DNA of 58,348 nt. It comes from Lujinxingiaceae bacterium (GTDB lineage: Bacteria > Myxococcota_A > Bradymonadia > Bradymonadales > Bradymonadaceae). The notes beneath the pieces were generated by a model that worked only from the letters and a program-made list of their open reading frames with translations, searched no databases and had not been told where the DNA came from. A program made the translations under genes and the position numbers. Location of the stretch: the NCBI GenBank assembly GCA_013697635.1, contig JACCWM010000092.1:1-58348 (forward strand), written 5' to 3'. Below, piece by piece: positions 25,139 through 52,231 of the stretch (position 1 is its first letter; every line of letters begins with the position of its first letter).

Positions 25139-25166
25139 TTGACAAGTTCCTGGCATCTGATCTAAT
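25139..25166 (+). promoter_or_regulatory. Sigma-70-type promoter for first DUF3494 gene
   Basis: TTGACA (25139-25144), 16-base spacer, TCTAAT (25161-25166). A perfect -35 and 5/6 -10 match. It would give a leader of about 135 bases containing hairpins CCGGC/GCCGG (25193-25205) and CCCAAA/TTTGGG (25217-25232). Confidence 0.65.
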
Positions 25167-25183
25167 CTTCAGCACTTCAACAC

Positions 25184-25214
25184 ACAACCTAACCGGCGGT
25201 GCCGGATGTTGAAG
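25184..25214 (+). repeat. Leader element, copy 1
   Basis: ACAACCTAACCGGC through GCCGG, ending in GTTGAAG. A second, slightly longer version precedes the next paralogue (26223-26259). Both contain a CCGGC/GCCGG stem and lie in the 5' leader, so they are either a duplicated regulatory hairpin or leftover from tandem gene duplication. Confidence 0.6.
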
Positions 25215-25306
25215 GGCCCAAATGACTTTGGGTTCCAAGCGTGTTCATGCCCCAACGCGACGGCAACGATGCCGCAAGTCGCGAATCTGCAACAGGACAA
25301 AACAAA

Positions 25307-26170
25307 ATGAAGAACTTGATGATTGTTTTATTGGCGTCAGTCGCAATTCTTGCGACGGCGTGCGGCGATACGACCAATGACAACAACGCCACGACCAACA
25401 ACAACGCCACGACCAACAATGACAACAACTCCACTGCGGACACCGGCGACAACTTCGACGCCGACTCCGATGATACGACGACCAATCCGGGCGGGCAGGG
25501 GCCTCAGGCCGTCAACCTGGGCTCGGCAGGCAACTACGTCATCTTGTCCAAGGCCGGCATCTCGACGACCGGCACGACCGCGATCGTGGGAAACATCGGC
25601 GTGAGCCCCAACGGCGAGCCCTCGATCTCGGGCTTTGACCTGTTAACACCATGGTCGACGTTCACGACCTCGGCGCTGGTCACGGGAAATGTCTACTCGG
25701 TCGACTTCTCTGAGCCGACGCCGACCAATTTGGGAATCGCCGTGCTCGCCATGGAGGCAGCCTACACCGACGCGGCCGGGCGCACCCTGCCTGACGCCAC
25801 CGAGCTTGGCGACGGCACCGGTAATATCAACGCCATGACGATCAGCCCTGGTCTCTACAAGTGGAGCACGGGCGTCAACATCCCGATCGTGGTCACGCTC
25901 AACGGCGGCGTCAACGATGTCTGGATCTTTCAGATCGCCCAGGATCTCACAGTCGGCGACGGCGCGATCGTGACGCTGACCGGTGGCGCACGGGCCCAGA
26001 ACGTCTTCTGGCAGGTCGGCGGCCAGGTCACCCTGGGAACGACCTCGGACGTCAAGGGTATCCTGCTCTCTCAGACGCTGATCGAGATGAACACCGGCGC
26101 TAAGTTGCTTGGCCGTGCCTATGCCCAGACCGCGGTCACCCTTGACGCCAACGCCATCACGCAACCCTGA
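25307..26170 (+). CDS. DUF3494 ice-binding-like lipoprotein 1 (Asn/Thr spacer)
   Basis: A 287-residue lipoprotein. Signal peptide with lipobox ILATAC, lipidated Cys 19, followed by a roughly 50-residue Asn/Thr/Asp-rich spacer (TTNNNATTNNDNNS) and a C-terminal DUF3494 domain of about 200 residues. Family signature segments are clear: YVILSKAGISTTGTTAIVG, NIGVSP, ATELGDGTGNINAM, GLYKWSTGV, VWIFQIAQDLTVG, NVFWQVGGQVTLGTTS and GRAYAQTAVTLDANAITQP. In studied DUF3494 proteins the domain is a right-handed beta-solenoid that binds ice, but many homologues occur in non-cold bacteria with unknown ligands. AGGA precedes ATG 25307. Gly at +2 favours outer-membrane sorting. First of five tandem paralogues. 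Confidence 0.9.
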   Translation: MKNLMIVLLASVAILATACGDTTNDNNATTNNNATTNNDNNSTADTGDNFDADSDDTTTNPGGQGPQAVNLGSAGNYVILSKAGISTTGTTAIVGNIGVSPNGEPSISGFDLLTPWSTFTTSALVTGNVYSVDFSEPTPTNLGIAVLAMEAAYTDAAGRTLPDATELGDGTGNINAMTISPGLYKWSTGVNIPIVVTLNGGVNDVWIFQIAQDLTVGDGAIVTLTGGARAQNVFWQVGGQVTLGTTSDVKGILLSQTLIEMNTGAKLLGRAYAQTAVTLDANAITQP

Positions 26171-26176
26171 ACTCTC

Positions 26177-26217
26177 GAGGCGGCCAGCTCGGATCGTTTT
26201 CTGGCCGCCTCTCTTTT
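26177..26217 (+). terminator. Rho-independent terminator after DUF3494 gene 1
   Basis: GAGGCGGCCAG (26177-26187) pairs perfectly with CTGGCCGCCTC (26201-26211), followed by TCTTTT. Placed 6 bases after the stop codon, it separates gene 1 from gene 2. Confidence 0.8.
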
Positions 26218-26222
26218 GCATG

Positions 26223-26259
26223 ACAACCTGACCGGCGATGGCGATGCCGGACGTTGAAG
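26223..26259 (+). repeat. Leader element, copy 2
   Basis: ACAACCTGACCGGCGATGGC continuing to GCCGG and GTTGAAG: the counterpart of 25184-25214 with six extra bases in the loop. It sits just after the gene 1 terminator and about 90 bases before gene 2. Confidence 0.6.
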
Positions 26260-26349
26260 ACTCCAAAGGGCTCTTAAGGGAGACCTCTGCACCAAAGTCG
26301 CAAGCGGTATAACCGCAGGCAATCAACGCTTAACTGAGGAAAAAATATA

Positions 26350-27660
26350 ATGAAAAATCTAATGATTATCCTGATCGCATCGGCCGCACTTCTGGCGACG
26401 GCGTGTGGAGAAGATCCGACCAATGAGCAGAACAACCGCAACAACGGTGGCGATACCTCGACTGCCGACACGGTTGACCAAAACAATGACAATAATGACA
26501 ACAACGGCAACGACACCGGCGATGCCTTTACGGGCGATGACACGACCACGGGCGACACGGCCACGGGCGATGACACGGCCACGGGCGATGATGCTGGGGA
26601 CGACGCGATTGATGACGCAGGCGACGCCACCAACGACGATGCTGACGGCGACGCCAGCGAAGACGCCTCGCCCAGCCCGCCGAAGGTGACCTCCACCTTC
26701 CCGCGAGACACGGCGACCAAGATATCGCTCAACGTGTCGGTCACCGTGAGGTTCAGCGAGCTGATGGAAGAGGCGACCCTCAATGATGTGAGCTTCGTCT
26801 TGATGGACGGGCTGACCCTTGTGGAAAGCACAGTCACTTACGCGGGCAAAATGGCGACCCTGGTGCCGGACATGCTGCTGACTGCCAACACCACCTACAC
26901 CGCCACGGTCTCAACCGATGCGACGACCATGGCCGGCCTGGCCTTGGAGAATGCCAAGACATGGAGCTTCAAGACGATTGAAGCACCTGGCAGCGGCCAA
27001 CAGGCCGTCGATCTAGGATCGGCCGTGGACTATGTCATCTTGTCCAAGTCCGGCATCTCGACGACCGGAACCACGGCAATCGTGGGCGATATCGGCGTGA
27101 GCCCGGCCGCTGAGCCGGCGATCACCGGCTTCGACCTGGTCTCGCCATGGTCAACCTTTGCGACATCGGCTCTGATCGAGGGCAAGGTCTGGTCAGTGAG
27201 CTTCGATGAGCCGACGCCGACCAATCTGGGCGTCGCCGTGCTTGACATGGAGCACGCCTACGACGACGCCGCCGGGCGCACCCTGCCCGACTCCACCGAG
27301 CTTGGCGACGGAGACATCAATGGCATGACGCTCACCCCTGGCCTGCACAAGTGGGGAACGGGAGTCTCCTTTGCCAATGGCGTGACTCTCGACGGTGGCG
27401 CAAACGACGTCTTTATCTTCCAGATCGCCCAGAACCTGACCGTCGGAAACGGCGCCATGGTAACCTTGGCCGGTAACGTCAAGGCGGAGAACGTCTTCTG
27501 GCAGGTCGCCGGCGAGGTCACCCTGGGCACGACCGCAGACTTCAAGGGAATCCTGTTGTCCAAGACTCTGATCGCCATGGAGACCGGCGCCAAGCTGCTT
27601 GGCCGTGCTTATGCCCAGACCGCCGTCACCCTCGACGCCAACGCCGTAACCCAGCCGTAA
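26350..27660 (+). CDS. DUF3494 ice-binding-like lipoprotein 2 (Asp/Thr spacer + Ig-like domain)
   Basis: A 436-residue paralogue of the preceding gene. Lipobox LLATAC, Cys 19, then a long Asn/Asp/Thr-rich low-complexity spacer with repeats such as TGDDTATGDD, then a Big_5/SbsA-type Ig-like domain (about residues 112-210: VTSTFPRDTATKISLNVSVT, FSELMEEATL, VTYAGKMATLVPDMLL), and the C-terminal DUF3494 domain (about 220-436). The DUF3494 part is very close to that of gene 1, including its nucleotide sequence at the 3' end, implying recent duplication. GAGGA precedes the start. The Ig-like domain adds length and rigidity and would place the DUF3494 domain farther from the outer membrane. Confidence 0.9.
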   Translation: MKNLMIILIASAALLATACGEDPTNEQNNRNNGGDTSTADTVDQNNDNNDNNGNDTGDAFTGDDTTTGDTATGDDTATGDDAGDDAIDDAGDATNDDADGDASEDASPSPPKVTSTFPRDTATKISLNVSVTVRFSELMEEATLNDVSFVLMDGLTLVESTVTYAGKMATLVPDMLLTANTTYTATVSTDATTMAGLALENAKTWSFKTIEAPGSGQQAVDLGSAVDYVILSKSGISTTGTTAIVGDIGVSPAAEPAITGFDLVSPWSTFATSALIEGKVWSVSFDEPTPTNLGVAVLDMEHAYDDAAGRTLPDSTELGDGDINGMTLTPGLHKWGTGVSFANGVTLDGGANDVFIFQIAQNLTVGNGAMVTLAGNVKAENVFWQVAGEVTLGTTADFKGILLSKTLIAMETGAKLLGRAYAQTAVTLDANAVTQP

Positions 27661-27682
27661 TTACACCGGCGTGCGGTCGTGA

Positions 27683-27707
27683 GCCCTTGTAGAACGAGGG
27701 CCGGTTT
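27683..27707 (+). terminator. Terminator-like hairpin after DUF3494 gene 2
   Basis: GCCCTTG (27683-27689) and CGAGGGC (27695-27701) pair around TAGAA with one G-T pair, followed by CGGTTTACT. A second possible stem GGCCGG/CCGGCC (27699-27731) overlaps. Moderate evidence for termination. Confidence 0.4.
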
Positions 27708-27768
27708 ACTAGCTCCAAAGCGCTGCCGGCCTTTCGACAGACGCCTACTTTCAAGAGGAAAGAAGTAA

Positions 27769-29124
27769 ATGAAAAATATCATCATCATCTTTGTCGCGTC
27801 TCTAGCCATGCTCACCACGGCATGCAATGAGACCTCAAGCGACAAGAAAATTGACAATACTCGGCCCGAAAACAACTACGACTTTTGTGAGGACATCAAC
27901 TGCCACATACCGGACGTCGGCGTGGTTGATGTCGGCGAAGACGTCATTGTCATTGAAGACGTCGCTGACGACGTCACCGAGGACGTGAGCGAAGACGTCG
28001 CCGAAGACGTGGGCCAAGACATCGTCGAGGAAGTGGGCCAAGACGTCGGCCAAGACATCGTCGAGGAAGTGGGCGAAGACGCCAGCCAAGACATCCTCGA
28101 AGATGTCCTCCCCGACGTTTCGATCAACGCGCCCTTCGTGCTTTCCACCGATCCCGAGCACGAGCAAGAGAATGTGCGATCAAACACCTTGATCAGCGCA
28201 ACCTTCAACGAGGAGATGGAGCCCACGACCTTCAATGAGTTCTCCTTCTTTGTGACGGACGGCACCGATTCGGTAACCGGTGAGATCAGCTATCTTAACG
28301 ACACGGTGACCTTCACGCCGGATATGCTCTTGGTGCCCGGCGCCACGTACATCGTCACAATCACGACCGGCGCAACGAATCTGGCCGGTGAGCCCATGGC
28401 TCTTGACGAGGAATGGGAGTTCACTATCGCTGCCGAGCCGCGTGGACCGGGCATGATCGATCTTGGCCTGGCGGGCAACTTCACGCTGTTGTCCAAGACC
28501 GGAATCACCGCCACGGGCGCAGCCGGTACCTCCGTAGAGGGCGACATGGGTGTCAGCCCGATCGATCACACCTCGATCACCGGATTTGGCATGCCCAACC
28601 TTCCCGATCCCAACCTGGTCACCTCTACGACCTCGCCGCTGGTGACCGGTGACATCTATGCCGCCAACTTCGGCGAACCGACGCCGGCCTATTTGACCAC
28701 CGCGATCAGCGACATGGAGACGGCTTTTACCAACAAAGCCCACGGCACACCGGACACCACGGAGTTGGGTGCCGGCAAGCTCGACGGCTTGAGCTTTAGT
28801 CCCGGCCTGCACGTTTGGAGCACAAATGTCACGGTCGACACCTTTTTCACGCTCGAAGGTGGCTCCAACGACACCTGGATCTTCCAGATCGAGCAAGAAC
28901 TGATCGTCGGCGACGCTGCCACGATGCTCCTGGGACCGGGGATCAAGGCTGAGAACATCTTCTGGCAGGTCACCGGCCAGGTCACCCTGGACACCAACAC
29001 GGAGTTCCACGGCATCCTGATCGGTAAGACGGCGATCGTCATGAAGACCGGCGCCAAGTTTCAGGGCCGCGCCCTGGCGCAAACCGAGATCACGCTCGAC
29101 GCCAACGAGATCAAGGAGCCCTAA
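27769..29124 (+). CDS. DUF3494 ice-binding-like lipoprotein 3 (Val/Asp/Glu repeat + Ig-like domain)
   Basis: The longest paralogue, 451 residues. Lipobox MLTTAC with Asn at +2. The spacer is a striking periodic acidic-valine stretch (EDVSEDVAEDVGQDIVEEVG repeated with variations, about residues 55-118), encoded by recurrent GACGTC units. Then a Big_5-like Ig domain (LSTDPEHEQENVRSNTLISA, TFNEEMEPTTF, VTFTPDMLLVPGATY) and a DUF3494 domain that is more divergent than those of genes 1 and 2 (NFTLLSKTGITATGAAGTS, HVWSTNVTVDTFFTLEGG). AGAGGA precedes the ATG. The spacer is likely an extended acidic, possibly calcium-binding stalk (inference). Confidence 0.9.
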   Translation: MKNIIIIFVASLAMLTTACNETSSDKKIDNTRPENNYDFCEDINCHIPDVGVVDVGEDVIVIEDVADDVTEDVSEDVAEDVGQDIVEEVGQDVGQDIVEEVGEDASQDILEDVLPDVSINAPFVLSTDPEHEQENVRSNTLISATFNEEMEPTTFNEFSFFVTDGTDSVTGEISYLNDTVTFTPDMLLVPGATYIVTITTGATNLAGEPMALDEEWEFTIAAEPRGPGMIDLGLAGNFTLLSKTGITATGAAGTSVEGDMGVSPIDHTSITGFGMPNLPDPNLVTSTTSPLVTGDIYAANFGEPTPAYLTTAISDMETAFTNKAHGTPDTTELGAGKLDGLSFSPGLHVWSTNVTVDTFFTLEGGSNDTWIFQIEQELIVGDAATMLLGPGIKAENIFWQVTGQVTLDTNTEFHGILIGKTAIVMKTGAKFQGRALAQTEITLDANEIKEP

Positions 29125-29132
29125 AGCTCACA

Positions 29133-29179
29133 CCAGGTGCTGGGCGGGCGGTTCTCCGCCTGCCCCGCCCAGCACCTGG
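29133..29179 (+). terminator. Strong hairpin after DUF3494 gene 3
   Basis: A 16-bp perfect stem: CCAGGTGCTGGGCGGG (29133-29148) with CCCGCCCAGCACCTGG (29164-29179), 15-base loop. An alternative inner stem GGCGG/CCGCC also exists. No T-run follows, so it may slow or stop transcription or protect the mRNA end. It starts 8 bases after the stop codon. Confidence 0.6.
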
Positions 29180-29243
29180 GCATCACTTGCCTGGCACACG
29201 AATAAAATAATCCGCTCCACATCCGTTGAGAGGACAAAATCCC

Positions 29244-30266
29244 ATGAAAAACATCCTGATTGTCCTGATCGCCTCGCTCGCTCTTGGGGCTGTGGCCTGT
29301 ATTGACGACCCAAAAGCCAGCCAGTTCGACGATATTTCCTATACCACGGACATCGGCGATACTACCTCGGACTCGCCAGACACCGACGCCCCCAACGGCG
29401 ACGACATCGGCGATGTGTTGGTTGGCGCCGATACCGGCCCGGATACCGGGTCGGATGCCGACCTCGATGTCGGCGATGATGCTGGCAACGATGCCGACGA
29501 TGATGCCAGCAACGATGCCGGCGACGATGCCGATGCCAGCGCTGACACCAGCACGGACACCGGCAATGATGCCGGTGACGACCCCGCGCGCGGGCCGCTC
29601 ATCGTCGATCTGGGAACGGCCGGCGACTACGTCATTTTGGCGAGCACGGGGATCTCGGCCACCGTCGGCACCACCATTGTGGGCGATATCGGCGTGAGCC
29701 CGATCGCCAGCCCCGCAATCTCGGGCGCCTTTGCGCTGGCCGAGCCTCCGACAACCTTTACGACGTCGCCGATCGTGACCGGCAAGGTTTATGCCGCCAA
29801 CTTCGACGCGCCAACGCCCGATAATCTGCTCACCGCAATCGGCGCCATGGCGACAGCCTTCACCGACGCCGCAGGGCGCGCCACGCCGGATTTCGTCGAA
29901 CATGGCGACGGCACAGGAGACATTGACGGTCTCGATCTCGAGCCCGGCCTCTACAAGTGGAGCACGGGCGTCGAATTCGCCAACGACCTCACTTTGACCG
30001 GTGGCGCCAACGATGTCTGGATCTTCCAGGTCGCGGGAAATCTGCTGGTGGGAAGCGACGCGATAGTCACGCTGGCCGGCAATGCCCAGGCCAAAAATGT
30101 TTTCTGGCAGGTTGCCGGCAACGCAACCCTGGGTTCGCACTCGGACTTCAAGGGAATCCTGATCTGCATGACCGAAATCGTGATGCAAACCGGCGCCAAG
30201 TTTCACGGCCGCGCTCTGACCCAGACCGCGGTAACACTCGATGCCAACACTGTAACTCAACCCTGA
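29244..30266 (+). CDS. DUF3494 ice-binding-like lipoprotein 4 (Asp/Ala spacer)
   Basis: A 340-residue paralogue. Lipobox LGAVAC (Cys 19), then a roughly 90-residue Asp/Ala-rich spacer with units such as DDAGNDADDDASNDAGDDAD, and the DUF3494 domain directly after it, with no Ig-like domain. Domain landmarks: GDYVILASTGISATVGTT, TELGDG replaced by EHGDGTGDIDGL, VWIFQVAGNLLVG and GRALTQTAVTLDANTVTQP. ATG 29244 has GAGAGGA upstream; a start six codons earlier lacks a good site. Only 14 bases separate it from gene 5, so the two form an operon. Confidence 0.9.
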   Translation: MKNILIVLIASLALGAVACIDDPKASQFDDISYTTDIGDTTSDSPDTDAPNGDDIGDVLVGADTGPDTGSDADLDVGDDAGNDADDDASNDAGDDADASADTSTDTGNDAGDDPARGPLIVDLGTAGDYVILASTGISATVGTTIVGDIGVSPIASPAISGAFALAEPPTTFTTSPIVTGKVYAANFDAPTPDNLLTAIGAMATAFTDAAGRATPDFVEHGDGTGDIDGLDLEPGLYKWSTGVEFANDLTLTGGANDVWIFQVAGNLLVGSDAIVTLAGNAQAKNVFWQVAGNATLGSHSDFKGILICMTEIVMQTGAKFHGRALTQTAVTLDANTVTQP

Positions 30267-30280
30267 ACTCCGGATAAAAA

Positions 30281-31024
30281 ATGAAGAATATTACGCGTTT
30301 ACTTTCGATATCTCTTGCCACGGTCGTGCTCTCTGCTACGGCCTGCGGCTCCAACGACGGCCCGGACAACGTCGAACTCGGCAGCTCCGGCGATTTCGCC
30401 ATTTTGGCAAAATCGGGGATCTCAGTCACCGGCGCCAGCTTGATCGTGGGCGACGTGGGCCTGAGCCCGGCCGCCGCCGACGACATCACAGGCTTTGGTT
30501 TGACCGCCCCGGCGACCACATTTACGACCTCGGCGCTCGTCACCGGAAAGGTCTGGTCGGCCGACTACACCGCACCGACGCCGGCCAAGCTCACGGCCGC
30601 AGTCAGCGCCATGGAGACGGCCTACACCGACGCGGCCGGTCGCACCTCGCCAGACCACACCGAGCTTGGCGCCGGCAACATCGACGGGATGACCCTCAGC
30701 GCCGGCCTCTACAAGTGGGGCACGGGCGTCTCGATCCCCACGAGCGTCACCCTCGAGGGCGGCTCGAACGATGTCTTCATCTTCCAGATCGCCCAGAACC
30801 TCACGGTCGGAAACGGCGCGCGCGTCAAGCTCAGCGGCGGCGTCAAGGCCGAGAACGTCTACTGGCAGGTCGCCGGCCAGGCCACCATCGGCACGACCGC
30901 CGACTTCAGCGGCATCATCTTGTGCAAGACGCTGATCACGTTGAACACCGGCGCCAAGATGACCGGCCGCGCCCTGGCCCAGACCGCGGTCACCCTCAAT
31001 GCCACGGCCCTGACCAAGCCGTAA
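30281..31024 (+). CDS. DUF3494 ice-binding-like lipoprotein 5 (no spacer)
   Basis: The minimal paralogue, 247 residues. Signal peptide with lipobox VLSATAC (Cys 22) followed after only about ten residues (GSNDGPDNVE) by the DUF3494 domain: DFAILAKSGISVTGASLIVG, GLYKWGTGVSIPTSVTLEGG, VFIFQIAQNLTVG, NVYWQVAGQATIGTTAD, and GRALAQTAVTLNATALTKP. Lacking a stalk, it should lie flat against the membrane, unlike its four siblings. Transcribed with gene 4; its ribosome site is weak (GGATAAAAA). Ends the array; a small CCACG/CGTGG hairpin (31060-31072) follows. Confidence 0.9.
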   Translation: MKNITRLLSISLATVVLSATACGSNDGPDNVELGSSGDFAILAKSGISVTGASLIVGDVGLSPAAADDITGFGLTAPATTFTTSALVTGKVWSADYTAPTPAKLTAAVSAMETAYTDAAGRTSPDHTELGAGNIDGMTLSAGLYKWGTGVSIPTSVTLEGGSNDVFIFQIAQNLTVGNGARVKLSGGVKAENVYWQVAGQATIGTTADFSGIILCKTLITLNTGAKMTGRALAQTAVTLNATALTKP

Positions 31025-31138: not shown

Positions 31139-32203
31139 ATGAAGCTCTCTTGGTGCGTGCTTGCAGCGCTGCTCTTTGTTGTGGGCTGCGGCCCGGCCAC
31201 ACCGTCGCCGCAGCCCAGCGATGACTCCGGCTTACCCGACGCCGCGCACTCACCCGACATCGACGACAACAACAACTCAGCGAGCTGGAGGTGGATCGAG
31301 ATCGAAGGCAGCGCCTGTGGAAACGGCACGCCCACCGGACTTGGCATCTCCGAGGGCTCCGATCCATCACGCATGATGATCTTTTTTGCCGGCGGTGGCG
31401 CCTGCTGGGACACAGCGAGTTGTTATGTCTTCAATGCCGCCTCGCACATCGAGACGCGCTACGGCGAGCAGCGCTTTGCCTCCGATCTGGCGGCGATGCA
31501 AAACTCGGGGATTATCGACCGGGCAAGCGGCCCGTTTGCCGAGGCGACCTTTGTGTTTGTGCCCTATTGCACAGGCGATCTGCACGCCGGCGACGCCATC
31601 GGCTCCTACGACGCCTTCAACCCCAATCGCCTCGTGCATCACAAGGGCGCGGTCAATGTCGCCGCCTACTTGGGCCATCTCACGGCTGCCTATCCCGACG
31701 TCAGCGAGCTCTACGTGCTCGGCGTCAGCGCCGGAGGCTACGGAGCGGTGATCAACCAGCCGCGCATCCAGGCCGCCTACCCCGGCGCGCGTGTGCACGT
31801 GCTCTCGGACTGCTCGCCGATGGTGCAACCGCGCGACGGGCGCTGGGGCATGTGGAAGAGCGCGTGGAAGATGGCGTTTCCCGAGGGTTGCGACGGATGC
31901 GCCGACTCCTTTCCCGAACTCGCCGCCCATATCGTAGAGTCGAGCCCTAATAGCCGCTTTGGCCTGCTCGCCTGGCACGACGACGCCGTGGTCGCCGTCT
32001 TTTTTGCCTACCAGTCCGGCCTGGGCGCGGCCACTCGCAAGCTCATCGAGGACGTCTATCCCGGCCAGCCAGGCAGTCAGGCCTCGGCCTTTCACATGCC
32101 CGGCACCGAGCACGTCATGCTGCCGGACTACGAAACGCTCAAAGATCCCGATGGCCAGTCACTGCGAAGTTTCGTGCAGGCCTGGGTCGACGGGACCCAT
32201 TGA
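31139..32203 (+). CDS. Pectin acetylesterase/Notum-like lipoprotein hydrolase
   Basis: A 354-residue alpha/beta hydrolase of the pectinacetylesterase-Notum family, exported as a lipoprotein (LLFVVGCG lipobox). Family motifs: early MIFFAGGGACWDTASCY (oxyanion region), nucleophile GVSAGGYGA, a late Asp in LAWHDDAVVA and the His in MPGTEHVMLPDY. Conserved Cys pairs suggest disulfides. Relatives remove O-acetyl groups from pectin or a fatty acyl group from Wnt; here the substrate is unknown, possibly an acetylated polysaccharide. AGGA precedes the ATG. It lies 114 bases after the DUF3494 array in the same orientation and could be read through from it. Confidence 0.85.
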   Translation: MKLSWCVLAALLFVVGCGPATPSPQPSDDSGLPDAAHSPDIDDNNNSASWRWIEIEGSACGNGTPTGLGISEGSDPSRMMIFFAGGGACWDTASCYVFNAASHIETRYGEQRFASDLAAMQNSGIIDRASGPFAEATFVFVPYCTGDLHAGDAIGSYDAFNPNRLVHHKGAVNVAAYLGHLTAAYPDVSELYVLGVSAGGYGAVINQPRIQAAYPGARVHVLSDCSPMVQPRDGRWGMWKSAWKMAFPEGCDGCADSFPELAAHIVESSPNSRFGLLAWHDDAVVAVFFAYQSGLGAATRKLIEDVYPGQPGSQASAFHMPGTEHVMLPDYETLKDPDGQSLRSFVQAWVDGTH

Positions 32204-32274: not shown

Positions 32275-34788
32275 TTATATCGAACGCCGGGAGACTTCTT
32301 CGCGATCGGTGATGTCGAAGAAGGTGATCACCACGCCGTCGATGCGGTCGTCGATCGTTCGATAGGGCAACAAGCGCATGATGAACCACTTGCCCTCGTC
32401 CGATCGCACGGTGCGCTCAATGGCGCGCAGATCTTTGAGCACCGCGCGCGCGTCGTCGATCATACCGTTGTATTCCAGCCGGTGCGTGATGTGATCGAAG
32501 GGCCGGCCCAGATCGACGCTGAGCAGGTTGAAATAGCTCTGAATCGGGGCGGTGAAGCGGCGCAAGTTGAGCTTTCGGTCCAAAAATATCGTGCCGATAT
32601 TGGTCGCCGAGAGCAGGTTCTTCAAATCGTTGTTGACGTCGTCGAGCTCGGTGAGCTTGTGGCTGAGCTCCTCATTGACCGTGATCAACTCCTCGTTGGT
32701 CGACTGCAGCTCCTCCTTGCTGGTCTCGAGCTCTTCGCTTGTCGACTGCAACTCCTCGTTGATCGTGAGCAGCTCCTCGTTGGAGGTCTTGAGTTCCTCG
32801 GTGGTGGTCTCGTAGCGCTCGATCGTACGGTCTAGCGTGCGCCGGGTCTTCTCGTTCTCCTGCTCGAGGCGCTCGACGACGGCCTGCATCGAGGCGTCGG
32901 CGTCGGCAATCTCGATGGTCTCCTGGATGCTGAAGGGGGCGTTCTCCCCTTCCGGCTCGAAGATCACCATGGCGTACTCATGGCTACTCTCGTCGGGCGC
33001 GCCGACAGGCTGTACGTAGATTCTCACGCTATGAGGCTTGGCGCTCTCGGCGAGGTGAATCGGTGAGGTGGTCGTGTTTCCCTTTCGCTCAAAGGCGGTG
33101 CCCATCGCCGTGCGCAACCTCAGGCGTAGATCGGGGTGGGCCATATGAAGAATATCCGCCGTCAGATGACCCGGCGCCATGCGCAAATAGGGGGAGACGT
33201 CACCCACGATATGACAGATCGCGCCGGAGCGGTCGATCAGCACGCTGGCAGGCGCATAGCGCGCGGCCAACAGCTCGTTGTGCAGCCGATCGACCGTGGC
33301 GCTTTGCTGAAAGGCGAACCTGGAACTTTCCGCGTGCACCGGGTCCTGGGTCGAGCCCGAGCCGGTGATGTTGTTCAACGGCAACCTGCGCCGGCTCAAA
33401 GACTTCGGCCGGTAGAGGCGATGAGCGGAGCTTATCGTGGAAAAGTACTCTTTGGAGCTTCCGATAAATTCCGAGGCCCCCAGAAACAAGAAGCCCTCCG
33501 GGCGCACCGCGTAGTGGGCGATCTCCAGGACTTTGCGCTGGGCCTCGTCATCGAGATAGATCAACAAATTGCGACAACTCATCAGATGCTGGCGCCCAAA
33601 GGGCGGATCTTTGAGGATGTCGTGAACTGCAAAGAGGGTCCTGTCGCGCAATTCCTTGACCACGCGATAGTCTCCGCCCTCGGCCGTAAAGAACCGGCTG
33701 AGGCGCGCGCTGGAGATGTTGGCGCAGGCCGCCGCCGAGTAGACGCCGCGGCGCGCGCTCTCGACGGCGCGGGCATCGAGATCGGTGGCAAATATCTTGA
33801 AGTCGGCCACGACCTTGCGTCGCGACGCCTCTTCCCACAGCAGCATCGCGATCGTGTAGACCTCCTCGCCGGTCGAGCAGGCCGGTATCCAGACGCGGAT
33901 GGGCTCCTCATCCTCCTTGGCGTCGAAGAGTTTGACGATCAACTCATCTTGCAGCGCTTCAAAGGCCTCCGGATCGCGAAAAAAGGCTGTGACACCAATC
34001 AAGACCGCGTTGAAGAGCGCGCTGGCTTCGTTGCGATCGGAGCGCAGGCAACTGAGATAGGCCGCAAGATTTGGCTGCTGAAGGATCTGGCGGCGGCGAT
34101 CGATGCGCCGCGACATGGTCGCGCGCTTGTAGTGCGAGAAATCGTGGCCCGTCGAGCGGTGCAACTGAGCGATGATCCCGCGGTAGACAGCTTCGGACTC
34201 GGGCAGGTGGTCCTCACGGTCGTCTGCGGCTCTCTCGTGGCTGAAGTCGCCTGCGGCAAAGCTCACCAGCCGGCGCGCGATATCGCCAGCGGTCAGGATC
34301 AAATCAACCCGGCCGGTATCGATCGCGCACTGCGGCATCGAGGGGTATTCCGCATCCTCCGGAGCCTGGGCAAAGGTCAGGCCTCCGCGCTCCTTGATCG
34401 CGATCACGCCGTTGGAGCCGTCGCGTCGGGTGCCCGAGAGCACGACGCCTATCGCGCACTCGTGCAGATCTTCGGCCAGGGACTGAAAAAAGTGGTCGAC
34501 CGAGCTGATCGAGCGGCGATCCTCGGAGGGCTCGCTCAGATGCAGCATCCCAGCCTTGAGCGTGAGCGCGGCATTGGGCGGGATGATATAGACGTGGTTG
34601 GGCGCAAGTGAAGTCTTCTCTGTGAGCTCGATGACCACCATGCGCGTGAAGCGCTGCAAGATCGCCGCGAGGTTGCTCTCCTGGTTGGGCGCGAGATGCT
34701 GCACCACCACAAAGGCCATGCCTGTGTCGTCGCTTACAGCCTCGAAGAAATGCCTCAGCGCTGTCAGGCCGCCGGCCGACGCCCCCAA
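32275..34788 (-). CDS. CheB-CheR-PAS chemotaxis-type signalling hybrid
   Basis: An 837-residue fusion. The CheB methylesterase domain (1-180) has the catalytic triad Ser 4 in GASAGG, His 31 in VVQHL and Asp 123 in RRDGSNG; the CheR methyltransferase domain (about 195-460) has GVTAFFRDPEAF, ACSTGEEVYTIAML and SCRNLLIYL. A Glu-rich coiled coil (TSNEELLTINEELQSTSEEL, about 640-720) and a C-terminal PAS domain follow, with no kinase domain. Such hybrids tune sensor signalling beside histidine kinases, here the divergent one at 35188. The start is odd: the frame begins only at TTG 34788, while an ATG at 34798 is out of frame by one base in a G5 run; removing one G gives MLWVGASAGGL, the normal family start. 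Confidence 0.9.
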   Translation of the reverse strand: MGASAGGLTALRHFFEAVSDDTGMAFVVVQHLAPNQESNLAAILQRFTRMVVIELTEKTSLAPNHVYIIPPNAALTLKAGMLHLSEPSEDRRSISSVDHFFQSLAEDLHECAIGVVLSGTRRDGSNGVIAIKERGGLTFAQAPEDAEYPSMPQCAIDTGRVDLILTAGDIARRLVSFAAGDFSHERAADDREDHLPESEAVYRGIIAQLHRSTGHDFSHYKRATMSRRIDRRRQILQQPNLAAYLSCLRSDRNEASALFNAVLIGVTAFFRDPEAFEALQDELIVKLFDAKEDEEPIRVWIPACSTGEEVYTIAMLLWEEASRRKVVADFKIFATDLDARAVESARRGVYSAAACANISSARLSRFFTAEGGDYRVVKELRDRTLFAVHDILKDPPFGRQHLMSCRNLLIYLDDEAQRKVLEIAHYAVRPEGFLFLGASEFIGSSKEYFSTISSAHRLYRPKSLSRRRLPLNNITGSGSTQDPVHAESSRFAFQQSATVDRLHNELLAARYAPASVLIDRSGAICHIVGDVSPYLRMAPGHLTADILHMAHPDLRLRLRTAMGTAFERKGNTTTSPIHLAESAKPHSVRIYVQPVGAPDESSHEYAMVIFEPEGENAPFSIQETIEIADADASMQAVVERLEQENEKTRRTLDRTIERYETTTEELKTSNEELLTINEELQSTSEELETSKEELQSTNEELITVNEELSHKLTELDDVNNDLKNLLSATNIGTIFLDRKLNLRRFTAPIQSYFNLLSVDLGRPFDHITHRLEYNGMIDDARAVLKDLRAIERTVRSDEGKWFIMRLLPYRTIDDRIDGVVITFFDITDREEVSRRSI

Positions 34789-35187: not shown

Positions 35188-37719
35188 ATGATAACGTTGA
35201 CTACAAAAGCCGGGGCCCGGGCAAAACCAAGCCTCGATGACGCTTTTCGTGCGCGCGTGGTGTTGCTCTTCTCGTGCATGCTCGCCATTTGGGCGCCGAT
35301 TTACTCCGCAATCATGTACGGATTGGCGGCCAATTGGGCGGTGGTCGCCTCCACAATGCTCTGCATGGTCTTGGTCGGGATCAGCCCGCTGCTGCTGCGC
35401 TGGGGCGCATCGTTTTTGGTCGTTGGCAACTGGCTGGCGTTCAACGTCTACTGGGAGATGCTCTTTGTCGGCGGCTATGCCGGCTTTGGTACGGCGCCGT
35501 TTTTGTGGCTGGCCGTGGTTCCGATGATCGCCCTGGTGATCGCCGGGGCGCGCTCGGCGCTCGGCTGGTTGGGCGTCAACCTGGTCAGCACGGCCCTCTA
35601 CTATCGCTATCTGTACCACGGCGGGGCCGACGCGCTGATCTTGTCGCCCGAGGGCGCTCTGATCTTCGAGGGCACCGTGGTCGGTGGCCTGTTTATCCTG
35701 GTGGTCTTGCTCTCCTTGTCCTTTGAGACCGCCAAGAACACGGCCATGGCCCAGCTCAAGGCCAGCGAGGAGTGGGGTCGCACAATCGTCGAGAAGGCCG
35801 CCGACGCGATCTTGACCGTTGATGGCGAGGGCCTGATTTGCTCGGCGAACGAGGCCTCGACCACGATGTTTGGCTACGATCGACGCACGCTCGAGGGCCG
35901 GCCCTTCGATCTGCTCGTGGCTGCCGTCGGCCAGATGCCGCCGCTCGTGACCGCCGAACGAGAGATTCCATTTGCTGGCTTCGATCCCGTGGCCGGCCCG
36001 ATCAATAAGAGGGACGCGCTTCGCGCCTGGGCTGGCAGCAGCTTCGAAGCCGAAGGCACACGCGCCAACGGTCAGCGCATCGCCGTCGAGATCGCGATCG
36101 ACCGGCTCGAGATGAACATGCAGGAGCGCTTTGTGGTGGTGCTTCGCGATCTCACCTACCGCAAGAAGGTCGAGGCCCAGAGCAAGATCGCGCTTCAACA
36201 AACCAAGGAGAGCTTTCGGGCGCTGATCGAGAATCTGCCCAACGGCGTCATCGTTCACCGCCAGGCCGAGATCCAATATCTCAACCCGGCCGCCAGTCGC
36301 ATGCTTCGCTGCGAGGATTGGACAGATCTGGTCGGCAGCCAGATCACCGATTTGATTCCCCCCGACGAGCTCGACCGATTCGCCGCCCATGTCAGCCAGG
36401 TCAGCGCCAGCACGGAGTTGGTCTCACTCAACGAGCACCACTTCCAAACCCTCGGCCATGAAAAGATCCCCGTCGAGAGCACCACCTTCCGGGCGATGTT
36501 TCAAAACGAGAGCGCCTTGATCTCGATCGTGCGCGACCTCACGGAGAGCCGCATGATGCGCATGACGATGATGCAGATGGAGCGCATGAGCGCCGTAGGC
36601 ACGCTCGCCGCCGGCGTCGCCCACGAGATCAACAACCCGCTGACCTTTGTCAGCGTCAACTTGGAGTTCATCGCCCACGCGCTCCAAGAGCTGCTGACGG
36701 CCGGCGAGCAGGCAACCACGGTCAATGCAGGCGAAGACTTGCAGGATTGGAGTGACGCCCTCGACGATGCCCGCGATGGTGCCGAGCGCATTCGCAAGAT
36801 TGTCTCCGATCTGCTCACCTACTCCCAACAAAACGAGGCCAAGGCCGAGCCCATCGACGTTGAGAAGGTCATCGAGACCACGATCAACATCGCCTGGAGC
36901 GAGATCAAGCACCGCGCACGGCTGGTGCGCGACTTCGAGCCCGTCGAGCCCGTGCTCGGCGAGTCTTCCAGCCTGGGACAGGTGGTGCTGAACTTGCTGA
37001 TCAACGCTGCCCACGCGATCCCCGAGACCCACGACGACGAACAGGAGATCCGCATAGGGCTTCGCCAGATCGACGAACAGGTGATCATCACCATCAGCGA
37101 CACGGGCACCGGTATCCCCGACCACATATTGCCCCAGATCTTCGACCCGTTTTTTACCACCAAGAGCAACAACAAGGGTACCGGCCTGGGCCTGGCGATC
37201 TGTCGCAATATCGTCAATAAATTGAACGGCCAACTGACGGTGGAGACTCAACTCGATAAGGGTACGACCTTTACTGTGACCCTGCCCATCACCCAATCGC
37301 GCACGAGCTTGGCCTCAACAGCAGCGCTCAAGGACGATGCCCAATTGACCTGGAGACCACGCGTTCTGATCATCGATGATGAACGCCTCGTGCGCTTGGC
37401 CATTCGCCGCCAGCTCACCAAAGACTTTGAGATCGACGACGTACCAAGCCCCAACGAGGCGTTCGCCCTGCTCGCCCAAGGTGCGCACTTCGACATCATT
37501 TTGTGCGATATGATGATGCCCGAGGACAGCGGTATCGAGTTCTTCGAGCGTCTGAAAATCAATCGCCCCGAGCTCGCCGACCGCGTGATCTTCATCACCG
37601 GCGGCGCCATGAGCGAGCACTCGGCGAAATTCTTGGAGACCACCGACGCCCCCGTACTCAACAAACCCTTTGATACCAGGGAGTTGCACAACCAGATCCA
37701 CATCCTACTCAAGCTCTGA
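35188..37719 (+). CDS. Hybrid sensor histidine kinase (membrane-PAS-PAS-HK-REC)
   Basis: An 843-residue hybrid kinase. The first about 185 residues carry roughly six membrane helices ([57 protein letters not shown]). Two PAS domains follow ([40 protein letters not shown]). The dimerisation domain has phospho-acceptor His 479 in GVAHEINNP, the ATPase domain has [11 protein letters not shown] and [20 protein letters not shown], and a C-terminal receiver has Asp 774 in LCDMMMPED and the Lys in LNKPFD. The phosphate is thus passed within the protein. Divergent from the CheB-CheR-PAS gene, so they may share a pathway. Ligand unknown. Confidence 0.93.
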
Positions 37720-50524: not shown

Positions 50525-52231
50525 TTAGAGCGCCTCAACGGGCAATTGAGCGTAGCGAATCTGAATCTCCAGGCCGCTCAATATGTTTTGGAACTGATCG
50601 TCGGTCCAGACGAGCTTGAGGCCAGCGCCGCCGCCAGGGCAACCATCCCAGCGGTATTGCGAAGTGCTCACGACGCAGCCGCCTTTGAACTCCACCGTGT
50701 TGATGCTGCCGGGCTCGCAAAAACCCGTGTCCGTCAGGCGCTGCACCGAGTCGTCGTCGCTGCTCCTGAGGCGCACCTGCACTCCGCTGTTACAATAGCG
50801 CCCGCCGCCGTTGGGATAGGCCGTGCAGGTACCCTCATCGCCGGAGTGCGGGAAGGGCGGGCAGTAAGACCCGGCCTCCTCACAGCGATAGATGTTGTTG
50901 ACGCAGCCACCGCCCTCGACCTTGAACAGGTTGGCGATCTCTTGGAGGGCCGGCCCGAAGTCACCGCAGATCAAACCCTCCGGATTTCCGTTGGTATCGG
51001 TCGACTTGGGAAAGTACTGGGGAAAGGAGCTCACGAAAGCGCCGTAGCGGTGACCCGAATAGGCAACACCCTTGGTGCTCGCGCAGCTGATCGGGATGTT
51101 CCATCCAGCCTCGCACTCGGCCGGGCGAGCCTCTTTATAGCGCTGGTCATCGCCATGGATCGAGGCGACGAGCACGTCATTGGGCGAAACCGTGCTCAGA
51201 CCCTTGGACGAGGCGAGATTCTCGAGCAAATTCTTCTTGAGCGTCTCGATCGGCACCAGCGGACTGTTCGGGTCATTCTCCCGAAACGTGCACTCGGCCA
51301 CACCACAGGAGGTGCGCTCGTTGACGCCACCGTCGTGGGTGCAGTCGTTCTCGTCGGTGACGATGATGATGCCCGTGCGCGCATCCGGGCGAAGAAAGCC
51401 CGCGTTGGGATGCGTCGCCGGATCGCCATCGGGCCCGCCGGTCAAGTCGACATTGACCGCGCGAACGATCGCGCCAAGACCCTTCTCGATGCCGTAGCCC
51501 AGCGTGCCGACCATACTGATGCAGGCAAAATCGCCCTGCAGGCGCGCGATGTCGAGGCGGCCCGCTGCATCACGAAACTTGCTCGACTCGAGGAACTTGG
51601 GGATGTCGCGGTAATCGGCCGGACGCGGAAAAAAGTCGCTGCGCGGCTTGATATCGGCCGGTGCGCATCCCCAACGTGCATCGTCAAGTGCACAGCGAAG
51701 CTCATTGATGTTGGGATTGAGCAAAGCCGAGTGACTGGCAGGATTGCGCGTGCAAGAGACTGCCGTGCGAATGGCATCGAGCACCGGCTCAAGGCTGCTG
51801 TGGTCCAGCGTGCCGTCGGCATTGACCGCGTAGTAGCAGGAAGGATCGTAGCCAGGAATCGGCTGGGGCGTCGATTGAAGATGTCCCGGCAGAGCCACCG
51901 GCTCAAACAGATATTCTTCCCGAGTCAGCATGTGCGTGGTCGTGACGCCGATATGAAAATCGAGATCGATCTCACCGAGGATCTCGATGAAGCTCTCGAA
52001 ATTGTCGCGCAGACCCTTTTGCTCCTGACACATCGAGCCCGAGTTATCGATCATCCAAAGAATGTCGAGTTTGGGTGAGGCGTCGAGCGTCGTCGTCACC
52101 AAAACCTCGATCGCGCCCGTTGAGCGCGCGAACTCCGCAGGGTGGGTGTTGCACGCCACAACGAGTCCGGCCGCAGCCACGCCCGTCAATAAAATCCCAC
52201 TCAAACGCAGACCACTATGACCCAGACCCAT
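50525..52231 (-). CDS. VWA-domain Cys-rich lipoprotein
   Basis: A 568-residue lipoprotein (lipobox GLVVAC, Cys 27). A von Willebrand A domain follows with MIDAS DNSGSM (62-67) in DILWMIDNSGSMCQEQKGL and an interior Asp in TGIIIVTDENDC. Later there are many Cys residues (SCGVAEC, GGGCVNNIYRCEEAGSYC, WDGCPGGGAGLKLVW), a type common on the surface of Myxococcota. It may bind metal or protein ligands outside the outer membrane. Start ATG 52231. The 274-base gap downstream (50251-50524) toward the kinase gene holds no gene. Function unknown. Confidence 0.85.
   Translation of the reverse strand: MGLGHSGLRLSGILLTGVAAAGLVVACNTHPAEFARSTGAIEVLVTTTLDASPKLDILWMIDNSGSMCQEQKGLRDNFESFIEILGEIDLDFHIGVTTTHMLTREEYLFEPVALPGHLQSTPQPIPGYDPSCYYAVNADGTLDHSSLEPVLDAIRTAVSCTRNPASHSALLNPNINELRCALDDARWGCAPADIKPRSDFFPRPADYRDIPKFLESSKFRDAAGRLDIARLQGDFACISMVGTLGYGIEKGLGAIVRAVNVDLTGGPDGDPATHPNAGFLRPDARTGIIIVTDENDCTHDGGVNERTSCGVAECTFRENDPNSPLVPIETLKKNLLENLASSKGLSTVSPNDVLVASIHGDDQRYKEARPAECEAGWNIPISCASTKGVAYSGHRYGAFVSSFPQYFPKSTDTNGNPEGLICGDFGPALQEIANLFKVEGGGCVNNIYRCEEAGSYCPPFPHSGDEGTCTAYPNGGGRYCNSGVQVRLRSSDDDSVQRLTDTGFCEPGSINTVEFKGGCVVSTSQYRWDGCPGGGAGLKLVWTDDQFQNILSGLEIQIRYAQLPVEAL

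Follow-up and report, generated by a model that had tools for sequence, protein, structure and literature searches.

A tandem array of five lipobox-bearing DUF3494 proteins, probably surface-tethered and ice-binding, in a Lujinxingiaceae bacterium

The window, a stretch of 58,348 bases of DNA, encodes five consecutive DUF3494 lipoproteins that probably constitute a lineage-restricted, tandem-duplicated family of surface-tethered ice-binding proteins, diverging under purifying selection. The five intact, co-directional open reading frames (P1 to P5) lie at 25307-31024 on the forward strand, each bearing a lipobox and each ending in a PF11999/DUF3494 domain (Table 1). The initial annotation had described such a run of lipoproteins on variable spacers, which is confirmed by the reading frames, lipoboxes and profile matches, except that it placed the start of the array at 25139, ahead of the first start codon at 25307. 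Ribosome-binding-like GAGG or AGGA sequence precedes each frame, the P5 site (GGAT) being weak.

All five C-terminal domains match the PF11999 profile (Ice_binding, formerly DUF3494) in an HMM search with 193-237 bits over profile positions 1-208 or 2-207, far above the curated cut-off of 28.7 bits, and the domain family first proposed is thus upheld. A chance match is excluded by the E-values of 1e-57 to 1e-70. Within the array, PF13205 (Big_5) occurs in P2 and P3 only, and in the domain search these two alone have the order of anchor, Ig/beta-sandwich extender, and ice-binding-type domain. Searched in full, the genome (6.2 Mb, 99% complete) contains no PF11999 domain beyond the array.

Table 1. 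Coordinates of the array, its domains and adjoining features in the window.
Feature	Position	Strand	Remarks
P1, lipoprotein, 287 aa	25307..26170	+	signal and lipobox LATAC
P1 tether, 49 aa	about 25364-25510	+	Asn/Thr/Asp
P1 PF11999 domain	25541-26161	+	
Terminator-like strong hairpin, then T-rich stretch, after P1	26177..26211	+	-23.6 kcal/mol, z -3.64, 0/200 shuffles equally stable
P2, lipoprotein, 436 aa	26350..27660	+	lipobox LATAC
P2 tether	about 26407-26673	+	Asp/Thr/Asn
P2 Big_5 Ig-like domain	26674-26976	+	
P2 PF11999 domain	27037-27651	+	
P3, lipoprotein, 451 aa	27769..29124	+	lipobox LTTAC; most divergent copy
P3 tether	about 27826-28125	+	Val/Asp/Glu, 4-residue period
P3 Big_5 domain	28126-28425	+	
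P3 PF11999 domain	28489-29112	+	
Very strong GC hairpin between P3 and P4	29133..29179	+	-41.9 kcal/mol, z -6.30; no obvious T-run
P4, lipoprotein, 340 aa	29244..30266	+	lipobox GAVAC
P4 tether, 101 aa	about 29301-29603	+	Asp/Ala
P4 PF11999 domain	29634-30257	+	
P5, lipoprotein, 247 aa	30281..31024	+	different signal peptide, lipobox SATAC
P5 spacer, 8 aa	30347-30370	+	
P5 PF11999 domain	30401-31012	+	
Lipoprotein-like pectinacetylesterase/Notum-type hydrolase, 354 aa, next gene downstream	31139..32203	+	PF03283, 49.8 bits

The N-termini read, by pattern, as those of Sec/SPII lipoproteins: a charged n-region, a hydrophobic stretch, and a lipobox ending in Cys, in signal sequences that begin MKN and end ATAC, ATAC, TTAC, AVAC, and ATAC from P1 to P5. 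Previously called near-identical, they are only similar (15/19 residues shared by P1 and P2), and the signal peptide of P5 is different and longer. The +2 residues are G, G, N, I, and G, and as sorting rules are not established for the phylum, the location of P1-P5 at the outer membrane or cell surface is putative. Each protein would be exported by Sec, lipid-modified at the lipobox Cys, and then anchored in the outer membrane. In P1-P4 the beta-solenoid would be held off the surface by a disordered acidic tether, to which P2 and P3 add one Ig-like domain each, and P5 would stay close to the membrane. The flat b-face of the solenoid could then adsorb to ice beside the cell, by which recrystallisation would be inhibited or the cell kept in a liquid ice-adjacent pocket.

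In the AlphaFold models of P2 and P3 the tether is of low confidence (pLDDT mostly below 50) and is probably disordered; the Ig-like domain is confident and the beta-solenoid mostly so, with both domains of P2 mostly above 80. Both models contain the discontinuous beta-solenoid with a long alpha helix that the DUF3494 fold requires. Their best Foldseek matches are ice-binding proteins, led by 9LHN and 9LI0 of Candidatus Cryosericum odellii and followed by 4NU3, LeIBP, and TisAFP, with 5B5H also among the matches; target TM-scores reach about 0.95 for P2 and 0.87 for P3, and the best E-values are 1.4e-22 and 2.1e-18, respectively. The ice-binding proteins of Candidatus Cryosericum odellii SMC5 (PDB 9LHN, 9LHS, 9LI0, 9LHR) are the closest solved structures, sharing the DUF3494 beta-solenoid with at most 65% domain identity and at most 66% ice-site identity. 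P1, P2, and P5 are 60-65% identical to 9LI0, which is an engineered form, and their ice-binding-site positions match it on par with the whole domain (66%, 60%, and 66%). Unlike the proteins of the array, the solved constructs are single domains, and the comparison is of domains alone.

The putative ice face was located by mapping the ice-site positions given for TisAFP7 (PMC7966756) onto TisAFP8 and thence onto P1-P5. A flat b-face was taken as six strands with an inward hydrophobic residue and an outward residue that is small or Thr, Ser, or Asn. The inward hydrophobic residues are retained in all five domains, with one Ala exception each in P4 and P5, but the outward faces differ. Outward positions occupied by T, S, A, G, N, or V number 10/12 in P2 and P5, nine in P4, and eight in P1 and P3. 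P2 and P5 have a clean flat face, mostly Thr, Ser, Ala, Gly, and Asn; the flat face carries a Glu and an Asp in P1 and two Glu each in P3 and P4. These acidic residues leave ice binding possible, because LeIBP, which is moderately active, likewise has them on its flat face. Compared among the five copies, ice-face positions are neither consistently more nor consistently less conserved than other positions of the domain. The PF11999 domains are 51-76% identical to one another, P1 and P2 being closest, so the array is not one domain repeated, and with putative ice faces that differ the five need not present the same binding domain.

Ice binding by the array is favoured by the profile scores, the identity to 9LI0, the Foldseek matches, the inward face residues, and the outward residues of P2 and P5. 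Against it, DUF3494 proteins are also known from hot springs, from the tropics, and from non-icy habitats around the world, and other repeating substrates have been suggested for them (PMC7783341); genomes from groundwater, deep mines, and peat are among those of the nearest relatives; and the faces of P1, P3, and P4 are partly acidic. The same observations, together with the pectinacetylesterase-like gene directly after the array, would suit an adhesin family whose DUF3494 domains bind some other repeating surface, such as a mineral, a polysaccharide, or another cell's envelope. This alternative is rather unlikely: relative to a solved ice-binding protein, the ice-face positions of P1 and P5 are as conserved as the remaining domain, and the esterase-like gene has no homologue at any DUF3494 locus examined outside the window. 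An operon shared by the array and this gene was rejected on the same comparison of loci. A genome search for pAdhesive_15 (PF20597) gave no match, with its control equally silent.

The second component of these proteins, the tether, had been interpreted as a graded length ladder. From P1 to P5 the spacers between Cys and domain measure 49, 200, 210, 101, and 8 residues, those of P2 and P3 including Big_5. They do vary from gene to gene, as first described, but P4 has about 101 residues and not about 90, and P5 has eight and not none. Given this order, they are not graded along the DNA. Five spacer lengths drawn at random from the phylum have a range at least as wide as the observed one in 53% of draws (P 0.53) and at least equally even spacing in 29% (P 0.29). 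A functional ladder, with spacers selected for different heights through a capsule or O-antigen layer and perhaps differing in expression timing, could call on their span of 8 to 210 residues, on a P5 spacer shorter than that of all 39 comparable same-phylum proteins (minimum 35), and on the hairpins between some of the genes. It is nonetheless improbable, as the lengths are unordered, their spread and evenness match random draws, the tethers are generic in genome and phylum, and the PF11999 domains themselves have diverged. The differing lengths probably reflect loose constraint on low-complexity sequence combined with gain or loss of the Ig domain.

That the tethers are generic is seen across the lipoproteome. 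A pattern-based search for lipoprotein-like open reading frames covered 713 kb of the genome, the window included, and scored as a tether at least 30 residues directly after the Cys that are largely D, E, N, T, S, G, A, P, Q, or V. Tethers of this length were found in 11/51 lipoprotein-like frames versus 9/1257 control positions, P1, P2, and the downstream esterase-like gene being among the 11. The count is conservative, because P3 and P4 scored zero under the strict rule, a handful of residues such as K, R, F, and Y lying close to their Cys. Long tethers rich in Asn/Thr, Asp/Thr, or Val/Asp also follow the lipobox of unrelated lipoproteins in this genome, at L131:1451-2242 (TNNTNNTNNTNN...DASGDDASGDDAS), L124:10191-10877 (DTGVEDTGAEDTG), and L076:3631-5292 (VVDVVTQDVGPGEEVGLDVVEDAVVEDVG). 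As these parallel each tether flavour of the array, the array draws on a tether common to the lipoproteins of this organism and not on a device of its own. With similar tethers on unrelated lipoproteins genome-wide and on 39/51 phylum relatives, the notion that they were purpose-made for the array is not supported. Elsewhere in the window, at 50525-52231 on the reverse strand, a predicted lipoprotein contains DNSGSM, a motif of the kind found in von Willebrand A domains.

Among relatives, the array is a lineage-restricted set. PF11999 is absent from 19/20 same-family genomes, the twentieth having one copy; it is found in 5/57 genomes of the class, that of the window included, and in 58/379 of the phylum sample above the cut-off. 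The plan of lipobox, spacer, and C-terminal PF11999 recurs in 39/51 distinct same-phylum proteins, with spacers of 35-449 residues. One genome (G031) has three tandem copies with spacers of 229 (two Ig domains), 120, and 223 residues (one Ig domain), and G022, G088, G307, G374, and G182 have two tandem DUF3494 lipoproteins each. These sets share with the array the lipobox, a variable Asp/Thr- or Gly/Ser/Thr-rich spacer, an optional Big_5 domain, and the C-terminal PF11999, but they have fewer copies, and those placed on the tree sit apart from the window's domains. Tandem DUF3494 genes are thus present as pairs and triples in the phylum and have been published (PMC9957290), so that the arrangement is in part already described; the run of five in the window is the longest among the 379 genomes. 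The G182 pair (L103, on C76) consists of two adjacent lipoproteins whose near-pure Asp/Thr/Ala/Gly repeat tethers (DTDADTD...) differ in length, and it shows tether-length variation more cleanly than the window does.

The five copies likely arose by in-place tandem duplication and divergence of one gene, since the AU test does not reject a tree that unites all five in a single clade (p 0.52); this tree improves on the free search by 1.2 log units. P1 groups with P2 as its sister (100/99). DNA repeats echo the duplications in the signal regions and, for P1 and P2, also in part of the upstream region. The dN/dS among copies, about 0.23-0.53, indicates purifying selection and speaks against decay. 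The nearest sequences on the tree come from Chloroflexota, Micrarchaeota, Nitrospirota, Desulfuromonadales, Rhodoferax, and one Myxococcota MAG, with the main same-phylum group farther away. Horizontal acquisition of the array is possible. The domains of highest identity belong to other phyla, yet a tree that constrains the 14 out-group rows to a clade excluding the window is not rejected (p 0.405), and an earlier transfer test (p 0.001) was confounded by nested Verrucomicrobia rows; no horizontal transfer is therefore claimed.

Tandem copies might mainly serve to raise the amount of ice-binding protein or to diversify its ice-plane specificity, with tether length incidental. Bulk production has been proposed for tandem ice-binding genes (PMC9957290), and the flat faces vary among copies, but divergence of 24-49% and the long branch of P3 exceed what pure dosage would lead one to expect. 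Such a role is conceivable if not especially likely; it is a sub-case compatible with a family of tethered ice-binding lipoproteins, and the two estimates overlap. A far bolder proposal, and a doubtful one, is a functionally divided set in which tether length and ice-face chemistry covary, so that the ice plane or substrate, and the envelope depth at which it is bound, would differ between copies, P5 lying next to the membrane and P2 and P3 reaching out on their Ig domains, and with parts of the array transcribed separately.

Given the hairpins after P1 and between P3 and P4, the array is unlikely to be transcribed as one uniform unit. P4 and P5, only 14 nt apart, are probably co-transcribed. 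A promoter scan gave no excess over shuffles. Near the array are genes for a CheB-CheR-PAS fusion protein (32275-34788, reverse strand) and a PAS-containing hybrid histidine kinase with a C-terminal receiver domain (35188-37719, forward strand), possibly a sensory pair adjoining it. The window, which is the entire contig C78, opens with ten perfect AAAACG copies at 1-60, probably the site of an assembly break.

Each ingredient of the array has already been published: ice-binding genes in tandem, Ig tethers, and lipid-anchored members. In the central Arctic, 46/79 MAGs have more than one ice-binding gene, often adjacent, with a maximum of nine in one MAG, and some of these genes include BIg domains, which are known as ice-adhesin tethers; unlike in the array, architectures are often identical within a MAG, and lipoproteins and linkers go unmentioned (PMC9957290). 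Flavobacterium sp. PL002 makes a lipoprotein ice-binding protein, PL002-1792, with ice-recrystallisation inhibition and freeze-thaw protection, and FfIBP is described as membrane-anchored; both resemble the array in lipoprotein signal and ice-binding beta-solenoid, but PL002-1792 is reported as one gene, with no low-complexity tether ladder described in the accessible part of that account (PMC13413566). The Shewanella frigidimarina ice adhesin SfIBP_1 (PDB 6BG8) also bears its ice-binding domain on Ig-type beta-sandwich domains, whereas the array is anchored by a lipobox and disordered acidic tether, with an Ig domain in 2/5 proteins only; domain identity to SfIBP_1 is 30% for P2 and 26% for P3. 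The published literature searched holds no report combining all these ingredients in one five-gene run, and no Bradymonad-, Myxococc-, or Cryosericum-related ice binding was found in it.

These observations suggest that the DUF3494 proteins of this phylum are typically cell-bound lipoproteins on long disordered tethers and not free secreted antifreezes, and that some of its genomes multiply them in tandem. Typical cell-bound tethering points to a role at the cell surface, with ice near the cell or in attachment, more than to the conditioning of bulk brine. The array, with its related domains on five natural tether lengths, would also make a handy test set for relating anchoring height to whole-cell ice recrystallisation inhibition.
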